DNA of 64,000 nucleotides from the NCBI GenBank assembly GCA_027488975.1, contig JAIYAQ010000012.1, forward strand, positions 1 through 64,000. The letters run 5' to 3'. The stretch's first letter is position 1, and the number at the start of each line of letters is the position of its first letter. Source of the DNA: Cyanobium sp. E1_MAG_00006 (lineage in GTDB: Bacteria; Cyanobacteriota; Cyanobacteriia; PCC-6307; Cyanobiaceae). The position numbers and the translations under genes were made by a program. Shown here one piece after another: positions 52,978 through 54,901 of the stretch. The notes under the pieces are model-generated. The model had not been told where the DNA came from, made no database searches, and saw only the letters and a list, made by a program, of their open reading frames with translations.

Positions 52978-53110
52978 ATTGCGAGTCCGGTTTCGCTGGT
53001 GAGCAGCCAGCGGACGCAAGGGGGAAAGTCCGGTGCAAGTCCGGCGCTGTCCCGCAGCTGTAAAGGAGCGGTGCCCCTGGGTGCTCCTCCAAGTCAGAAC
53101 GCCCGCCGGT
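52978..53110 (+). ncRNA. Cobalamin riboswitch upstream of hupE
   Basis: The highly conserved B12 box is present at about 53025-53063, with GTCCGGTGCAAGTCCGG followed by CGCTGTCCCGCAGCTGTAA. The 3' closing element AAGTCAGAACGCCCGCC (53091-53107) pairs back to the 5' arm as in the family. The 5' boundary is approximate. It lies wholly in the gap before hupE (start 53146), where ligand binding would block expression of hupE and cobW when cobalamin is plentiful. An open frame running through it (from 52999) is not a real N-terminus. Confidence 0.94.
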
Positions 53111-53145
53111 CCTCCCTTCATCCCTGGCGCGGACCAGTTCTCCGG

Positions 53146-53781
53146 ATGCAACAACGCGTTTCAAGGCTGTCGCCTGGTGCCAGCCTGTCTGGTGCAGGCC
53201 TGGCCACGGCTGGTGTCCTGGCTGTGCTGTTCACAGCCGCACCGGCTTCGGCCCATCACCTGATGGATCTGTTCCATCAGAGCCAGCCCACCGTCCTCGG
53301 TGGTCTGCTGAGCGGCCTGGGACATCCCGTTCTGGGTCCAGACCACCTCTTGTTCCTGCTGGCCCTGGGTCTGGTGGGTCTGCAACAGTCCCGCCGCTGG
53401 ATGCTCGGACTGCTCAGCGTCGGTCTGGGCGCCACGGGGCTGGGTCTGCTCCTTCCGGGCCTGCCCGGTGCCGAGTTTCTGGTGGCCCTGTCACTGGTCG
53501 CGATTGGTCTGGTGCTCTGCGGCCGCCTGCCGCGCTTGGTGCTCCTGCCCGCCTTCGCCCTGCATGGCTACGTGCTGAGCGCCGCGGTGATCGGCTGGGA
53601 GAGCACACCGATCGCGGGCTATCTGGTTGGACTGTTGATCAGCCAGGGGCTGTTGCTGCTGCTATCGCTCAGCGTGGTGCGGGCCTGGGCCAGTCAGGCC
53701 CAGCCTGCTCAGCTGCGGCTGCTGGCTGGACTGCTGATGGGGGTGGGCGGCGCCTTCGCCTGGACCAACCTGGTTCCCTGA
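53146..53781 (+). CDS. hupE: HupE/UreJ-family metal transporter, probably cobalt
   Basis: A 211-residue membrane protein with a signal peptide (ATAGVLAVLFTAAPASA) cleaved before HHLMDLF, then six helices and the family motif GHPVLGPDHLLFLLALG, whose His and Asp residues are the metal-handling site. HupE/UreJ proteins move nickel or cobalt. The upstream cobalamin riboswitch and downstream cobW point to cobalt. ATG 53146 is the first start after the riboswitch. One base separates its stop from the cobW ATG. Confidence 0.92.
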   Translation: MQQRVSRLSPGASLSGAGLATAGVLAVLFTAAPASAHHLMDLFHQSQPTVLGGLLSGLGHPVLGPDHLLFLLALGLVGLQQSRRWMLGLLSVGLGATGLGLLLPGLPGAEFLVALSLVAIGLVLCGRLPRLVLLPAFALHGYVLSAAVIGWESTPIAGYLVGLLISQGLLLLLSLSVVRAWASQAQPAQLRLLAGLLMGVGGAFAWTNLVP

Positions 53782-53782
53782 G

Positions 53783-54901
53783 ATGAGTAGCAATCTTGGT
53801 CGTCTGCCGGTCACGGTGGTGACCGGCTTTCTTGGTGCGGGTAAATCCACCCTGCTGCGCCAGTTGCTGCTCAACAGCGGACTGCGGCTGGCGGTGCTGG
53901 TGAATGAATTTGGGGAAGTCGGCATCGATGGCGACCTGATCCGCAGCTGCGGTTTCTGCCCGGAGGAGGAGCTCGACGGCCGCGTGGTGGAACTTGCCAA
54001 CGGCTGCCTCTGTTGCACGGTGCAGGACGAATTCCTGCCGACGATGCAGACCCTGCTGCAGCGGGCTGATCAGCTCGACGGCATCGTGGTGGAGACCAGC
54101 GGACTGGCATTGCCGGTGCCACTGGTGCAGGCCTTCGGCTGGCCGGAGATCCGCAGCCGCACCCGCGTCAGCGGTGTGGTGACTGTTGTGGATGGTGAAG
54201 CCCTGGCGGCCGGCAGTGTTGTGGGGGATCCAGCCGCTCTCGATGCCCAGCGCCTTGCAGATCCGAGCCTCGATCACCTCACCGATATCGAGGAGCTGTT
54301 CGAGGATCAGTTGCAGGCGGCTGATCTGGTGTTGCTCAGCCGCGCCGATCGTCTCCAGCCCGAGCAGATTGCAACGCTTGAGGCCCAGTTGCGGCTGCAA
54401 CTGCGCCCCGGCGTTTCTGTGCTGCCGATGCAGCGGGGCGATGTCCCGGCTGCTCTGCTGCTTGGCCTGGAACGGCCTGATGCTGTGGCGTCGACCGAGG
54501 TCGACCCGGATCATCACCACGACCACGACCACGACCACGACCACGACCACCACAGCCACAGCCACGTGGCCATGCAGTCGGCCGTGGTTCAGCTGGATGG
54601 TGTTGTCGAGCGATCACTGCTGGAGGGCGTGCTGCTGGATCAGATCCGGGCTCAGGGCCTGCTGCGTCTGAAGGGGCGTGCCTGGCTCGCGGGCAAGAAC
54701 CATCCGCTGCAGATCCAGGCGGTGGGCCCACGGCTTGAATGCTGGTTCGACAGCGCGGCACCAACAGCGCAACGGCGTGACGCTCCCGGGCTCGAACTCG
54801 TTGCGCTTGGACTCGCGGTTGATGCTGCGGCCCTGCGCACAGCGTTGGCGACCAGCCTGCAGGCTTCCTCGGAACACCAGTCGTCGCCGCCATTGCGCTG
54901 A
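53783..54901 (+). CDS. cobW: CobW-family G3E GTPase (cobalt metallochaperone)
   Basis: G3E GTPases load metals into cofactors or enzymes; CobW proteins are thought to supply cobalt to cobalamin synthesis. The 372-residue protein has Walker A TGFLGAGKST (14-23), the metal-binding CxCC motif in ANGCLCCTV (Cys75, Cys77, Cys78), VVETSGLALP and SRAD (guanine specificity). At about residues 243-263 is a His/Asp array of HD pairs that would bind divalent metal. The C-terminal CobW_C domain follows. Operon with riboswitch-controlled hupE supports a cobalt role over zinc. Confidence 0.93.
   Translation: MSSNLGRLPVTVVTGFLGAGKSTLLRQLLLNSGLRLAVLVNEFGEVGIDGDLIRSCGFCPEEELDGRVVELANGCLCCTVQDEFLPTMQTLLQRADQLDGIVVETSGLALPVPLVQAFGWPEIRSRTRVSGVVTVVDGEALAAGSVVGDPAALDAQRLADPSLDHLTDIEELFEDQLQAADLVLLSRADRLQPEQIATLEAQLRLQLRPGVSVLPMQRGDVPAALLLGLERPDAVASTEVDPDHHHDHDHDHDHDHHSHSHVAMQSAVVQLDGVVERSLLEGVLLDQIRAQGLLRLKGRAWLAGKNHPLQIQAVGPRLECWFDSAAPTAQRRDAPGLELVALGLAVDAAALRTALATSLQASSEHQSSPPLR
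54521..54550 (+). repeat. GACCAC hexamer repeated five times in cobW
   Basis: Five perfect GACCAC units encode Asp-His pairs in the metal-binding loop. Copy number would directly change metal-binding capacity and may vary between strains. Confidence 0.9.

Follow-up and report, generated by a model that had tools for sequence, protein, structure and literature searches.

The locus lies in a 64-kb window (the whole stretch of DNA that was analysed, 64,000 nucleotides) of a source genome that spans 2.70 Mb over 40 contigs. It consists of a cobalamin riboswitch followed on the forward strand by hupE (53146–53781) and cobW (53783–54901). The genes are one base apart, with the hupE stop codon (TGA) at 53779–53781 and the cobW ATG starting at 53783. 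On the 5′ side are a pentapeptide-repeat gene and a uracil phosphoribosyltransferase gene, and the genes 3′ of cobW look by eye like purS and purQ. The best named matches of CobW were Synechococcus records, MAGs of Synechococcaceae or uncultured cyanobacteria, and one Cyanobium record. Judging by its relatives, the source genome is probably picocyanobacterial. Picocyanobacteria are major primary producers.

The riboswitch aptamer (RF00174; 52971–53124, +) scored 61.6 bits with the covariance model (cmscan; gathering score 31.5, E = 8.1e-13), and was the sole Rfam match above gathering score in the window. The initial annotation had described a clear B12 riboswitch in front of hupE, a single base between hupE and cobW, and a CobW loop encoded by five perfect GACCAC hexamers, and all three were confirmed; the hexamers lie in frame at 54521–54550 (+; located by TRF) and encode (Asp-His)5 inside a His-rich linker. 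The stretch chosen there for probing (52978–53110) misses the B12 box/P1 end and the entire P13-like hairpin described below.

HupE was assigned to the HupE/UreJ family by its match to PF04955 (69.8 bits, cutoff 23) and by the sequence HPVLGPDH at residues 60–67, and appears by eye to begin with a signal-like segment. No solved structure was similar to it by sequence. From its genomic context, HupE is predicted to be a Co(II) importer.

CobW scored 362.7 bits against TIGR02475 (curated cutoff 332.1), an equivalog model, and carries the PF02492 and PF07683 domains, with the CxCC metal motif present as CLCC at residues 75–78. The motifs GFLG.GK, NEFG and C.CC, which include the P-loop and CxCC, were kept in all 21 aligned CobW proteins. 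The late-insertion chelatase CobN is encoded on the same contig (1651.7 bits), and CobW is a predicted Co(II) metallochaperone GTPase. By sequence, YjiA entries were the only solved structures that CobW matched. An AlphaFold2 model based on the 21 aligned sequences had a mean pLDDT of 80.7, falling below 50 at residues 231–247 and 256–260 of the linker, which lies between the GTPase and C-terminal domains.

The hairpin upstream of hupE and the mode of control

Immediately after the aptamer is a P13/L13-like hairpin, CUGG-CGCGGA-CCAG (53124–53137, +), which ends 8 nt 5′ of the hupE ATG and is the predicted translational expression platform. The L5 loop of the aptamer carries UCCCG (53050–53054, +), identical to a published L5 consensus, and the loop of the hairpin, CG(N)GGA, would pair with it if N were bulged; a one-base L13 bulge has been described in the env8HyCbl riboswitch (both PMC10653944).

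Conservation of the hairpin was followed in 54 distinct leaders, which were collected by a script with a B12-box pattern and not drawn from all 95 riboswitch matches of the wider sample described below. The loop motif CGNGGA followed the B12 box in 45 of the 54, compared with a mean of 2.0 and a maximum of 9 in 2000 shuffles; a stricter first filter on the leaders had given 12 of 16. Three of the nine leaders lacking CGNGGA carry CTGGCTCGGACCAG and six have a CTGCGAGG-type hairpin, and all nine are outside the pair count. In the 45 leaders, the four-pair stem had standard pairs in 177 of 180 cells. The rows were picked by the loop motif, and constancy of the loop within them is no evidence.

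Reduced to 38 distinct leader segments, 98.0% of 152 cells were paired, against a shuffled mean of 86.3%, and three of the four stem pairs were altered on both sides. When the stem was slid along the leaders, at most 46.1% of cells were paired. The covariation score and the count of cells changed on both sides exceeded all 500 shuffles, with the caveat, given as a warning by the tool, that kinship among rows can beat shuffles without real structure. Two of the five covariation measures did not rise above the shuffles (both-side-changed pairs, 175/500; further pair types, 500/500). Past the hairpin, the first start-type codon of 35 of the 45 leaders was an ATG 3–11 nt away, the distance in the window being 8 nt. 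In nine leaders it was a TTG or GTG at 0–5 nt, and in the remaining one, from a locus (L176) whose gene is not hupE, it was an ATG at 1 nt.

The stem thus covaries and the loop motif is enriched, the features looked for in a P13/L13 expression platform of RF00174, with L5–L13 pairing predicted by complementarity. A covarying hairpin 8 nt from the ATG fits the known L5–L13 kissing loop and points to translational control of hupE, which is the probable mode of the switch. An unconstrained minimum-energy fold of the leader did not recover the native aptamer and was set aside in favour of covariation.

No terminator-like site was found between the aptamer and the hupE start. A terminator-like stem is present at 53806–53827, within cobW, and could suggest that the riboswitch acts by transcription termination or additionally through this internal site, but the stem is coding sequence, two such stems compare with a shuffle mean of 0.9 (sd 1.0), and the conserved P13-like hairpin adjoins the hupE start codon instead, making such a mode unlikely. 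Translational control would place the switch with E. coli btuB and env8HyCbl, translational corrinoid riboswitches with an L5–L13 kissing loop, with which it shares the UCCCG of L5 and a hairpin near the start codon and, in the case of env8HyCbl, possibly the one-base bulge of L13. It differs from both in its short stem of four pairs.

The CobW linker and its hexamer array

A 2009 paper (Haas et al., PMC2770081) bears on both the linker and the regulation of cobW. It reports that the His stretches of CobW proteins comprise 4 to 15 histidines. With other CobW proteins of the COG0523 G3E GTPases (TIGR02475), the present one shares CxCC, the GTPase and CobW_C domains, and a His stretch. CobW has been purified on a HisTrap column by means of its natural His-rich region and bound Co(II) at 1:1 (Young et al. 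2021, PMC7895991), and a review places the likely Co(II) site at CxCC, adding that the His/Asp-rich region could help in hand-over. The idea that the Asp-His loop is the main Co(II) site was dropped as the leading view on both counts, the 1:1 stoichiometry reported for a His-rich CobW and the site favoured by the review.

Apart from the GACCAC array, no perfect hexamer repeat of three or more units occurs in 264 kb sampled from the source genome (the window and the adjacent 200 kb of the same contig). A 200 kb sample of a related genome (G056), not including cobW, held one other, of 4.3 units, so that such arrays are rare but not exclusive to cobW. Given the peptide and codon use alone, five identical units have a probability of 0.019 for any one word and 0.0022 for GACCAC. 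The array in the window is therefore only mildly unlikely by itself, and the stronger case for a repeat rests on relatives.

Comparisons were made with a family sample of 71 genomes (Cyanobiaceae relatives), in which five of the 71 rows of the loop table were unparsed at first and recovered with a looser motif, and with a set of 109 CobW genes used for a quick tree, from which four duplicates (L202, L207, L223 and L224), rows of 300 aa or fewer and rows containing a stretch of unknown residues were excluded. Arrays of at least four units (4 to 13) were found in 37 of the 109 genes and were lacking in 72. Four words were used, three for Asp-His (GACCAT in 24, GACCAC in 8, GATCAC in 2) and one for Glu-His (GAACAT in 3). 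On the tree, the word labels changed 16 times. The presence or absence of an array changed 12 times, compared with 31 when shuffled, with at least eight changes forced by well-supported branches. Arrays thus cluster, and common descent rather than independent origin accounts for many of the 37, yet the label still changed several times. Neighbouring genes on the tree carry different words in either register: GACCAC ×6 beside GATCAC ×8 (support 81), and GATCAC ×7 beside GACCAC ×4 (support 99). In one of the excluded duplicates (L224), an Asn-Gln repeat directly precedes the Asp-His array at about residues 238–262 of CobW, perhaps a second, derived repeat.

Two genera were sampled more deeply. 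In the source genus, identical units were adjacent at 94 of 115 positions across 22 loops, and the mean of synonymous shuffles within loops was 57.6, with none of 5000 reaching 94; copy-number counts for this genus leave out two unparsed loci (L194, L204). The second genus (that of G032) may be Prochlorococcus-like, going by the GACCAT arrays it has in common with two named loci (L011, L012). A cobW match was present in 29 of its 41 genomes, and counts were made on 25 complete genes, leaving out four that end before the loop (L230–L233). The longest array consisted of 3–12 GACCAT units in 23 of the genes and of GAACAT in two. Asp codons in the loop were 177 GAC and 22 GAT, against 72 and 469 elsewhere in cobW, although the rows are related and the contrast overstates their independence. 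Two genes of this genus are 98.3% identical over the 660 bases 5′ of the loop but differ in their arrays, one having a perfect array of 10 and the other an interrupted array with a longest run of 7 and a greater total length (15 His against 10).

The differences in copy number and word between species support the initial proposal that the array could change by slippage, and recurrent gain and loss of units is the best reading of its history. The initial annotation further suggested that such changes tune metal capacity, which stays a conjecture beside the 1:1 Co(II) binding measured for a His-rich CobW. The window array, which is not extreme by itself (0.019 for any uniform word), could also come from simple codon bias in an Asp-His loop kept by selection, but this is a very unlikely explanation given that the unit identity of the source genus was reached in none of the synonymous shuffles, that the loops of the second genus favour GAC where the rest of cobW has mostly GAT, and that neighbouring species carry different words.

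Arrays were present in four genomes (G056, G032, G070 and G061) in which no riboswitch was detected upstream of cobW. The two features are therefore separable, and the possibility that array and riboswitch evolved as one unit was rejected. In the favoured reading, the linker between the two CobW domains is under loose constraint and has lengthened and shortened many times by whole hexamers, and it probably concentrates metal or hands it over rather than fixing the number of tight sites. A bolder proposal, which we regard as speculative and rather doubtful, is that the hexamers encoding the picocyanobacterial linker behave as a microsatellite, collapsing and re-expanding time and again, and so give evolution a rapid means of adjusting cobalt buffering or hand-over in organisms whose methionine synthesis seems to require cobamide. 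No account of repeat or length variation in such His-rich loops was found in the open-access literature searched. For work on what the His-rich loops of metallochaperones do, the repeat provides CobW loops of graded length that already exist in nature.

Cobalamin riboswitches and cobalt supply in related genomes

The source genome has three RF00174 matches, each directly 5′ of a hupE homologue, and six hupE matches in total. In the family sample, where the riboswitch search used stricter filters, 95 matches (94 above cutoff) were found in 57 of the 71 genomes, and 14 genomes gave no match under these filters. A hupE gene was directly downstream on the same strand in 87 of the 95 cases, 34–181 nt from riboswitch to domain match, and cbiM in four. 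The other four preceded the chelatase gene cbiX (one), an SLH/OprB porin gene together with a ZnuA-like gene (one), or a fatty-acid desaturase gene (two). In all, 92 of 95 riboswitches are 5′ of hupE, cbiM or cbiX, so that cobamide riboswitches in this sample are almost exclusively switches of cobalt supply. The gene cbiM was present in five of the 71 genomes; in one of these (G031) no hupE match was found and the riboswitch precedes cbiM, indicating that a known type of cobalt importer replaces hupE behind the same switch. Conversely, 47 of 134 hupE matches had no riboswitch directly upstream.

The full riboswitch–hupE–cobW order occurred 30 times in 29 of the 71 genomes, two of the cases being in one genome with 4% contamination (G064), and three further genomes had hupE–cobW with no detected riboswitch. 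Among 13 named loci with a cobW relative that were scanned, which overlap the family sample in at least one genome (L007 is G034), a riboswitch was upstream of cobW in eight. A reading frame with HPxxGxDH followed the riboswitch in seven of these and was absent in one (L013). The seven include loci of Xenococcaceae (L014) and Leptolyngbya (L015), so that the arrangement extends beyond picocyanobacteria.

Riboswitch-linked hupE and CobW are both already known. Reviews have described HupE as a riboswitch-linked cobalt transporter, citing a Synechocystis hupE mutant rescued by cobalt or methionine (PMC7689651, PMC4284471), and a 2007 metagenome study listed cobW and hupE among genes behind B12 elements (PMC2211319). 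The present locus shares the position of the riboswitch and the HPxxGxDH motif with known cyanobacterial riboswitch–hupE loci (marine forms, and Synechocystis, where the cobalt role comes from the mutant), but differs in having cobW one base on in the same operon, and in the presence of three riboswitch–hupE loci in the source genome. No description of a hupE–cobW riboswitch operon in cyanobacteria was found in those parts of the open-access literature that were searched. The operon is sound and mostly known, and the repeat dynamic is well supported. That cobW stands in a riboswitch-headed operon in 29 of 71 genomes is at odds with the 2009 statement that cobW in cyanobacteria neither clusters with B12 genes nor is under riboswitch control (PMC2770081).

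Besides CobN, the source genome was searched for MetE and CbiM, and neither was matched; the same MetE search gave matches in 10 of 14 genomes, nine of them above cutoff. The presence of CobN with no match to MetE suggests that methionine synthesis is cobamide-dependent. The rival view that HupE serves chiefly to bring in nickel, for urease or some other nickel enzyme, its riboswitch link being incidental, draws on reports of HupE/UreJ within hydrogenase and urease clusters elsewhere (PMC7689651, PMC4284471), on published trees with a nickel branch besides the cobalt branch, and on a UreG-like gene on another contig (C30; a PF02492 match named by eye) that suggests a need for nickel and hence a possible nickel role for some HupE copies, but is most improbable given the predominance of hupE and cbiM behind these switches (87 and 4 of 95), the CobW equivalog (TIGR02475) adjoining hupE, and the reported restoration of the Synechocystis mutant by cobalt or methionine.

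Several hupE arrangements differ from that of the window. A 10 kb contig of the source genome (L095, 2772–4760, −) carries three tandem hupE homologues with a riboswitch before the last, and the middle homologue lacks the HPxxGxDH motif by eye. Contig C9 of genome G000 has an incomplete hupE match at 125927–126169 that contains one in-frame TGA and may be a remnant. Another genome (G003, contig C16) has back-to-back divergent cobalamin riboswitches at 30735–30899 (−) and 30950–31108 (+), with hupE behind each (L182), and the same was seen in G058.

Comparative genomics supports the initial view of a cobalt module under cobalamin control. The best explanation of the whole, which we consider to have a probability of roughly 0.8, is that the locus serves a picocyanobacterium as an operon for acquiring cobalt, with a translational cobamide switch and a slippage-prone CobW linker. 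When cobamide is plentiful, it would bind the aptamer; pseudocobalamin is the probable native ligand, as put forward for picocyanobacteria (PMC9361551). In the bound aptamer, L5 (UCCCG) would kiss L13 (CG-C-GGA, one base bulged) and steady P13 just 5′ of the hupE start, so that translation of hupE would drop and, with it, that of cobW one base on. Under cobamide shortage, HupE would import Co(II), and CobW, with its CxCC site and Mg-GTP, would hand it to the CobN-type chelatase.

The two riboswitches before fatty-acid desaturase genes (PF00487) are in different genera (L177, 4151–4325, −; L178, 1065–1239, +), a link that was also reported in the 2007 metagenome paper (PMC2211319). The riboswitch at 3486–3636 (−) of L176 precedes genes for the SLH/OprB outer-membrane porin and the ZnuA-like metal-binding protein, a candidate outer-membrane and periplasmic route for cobalt.
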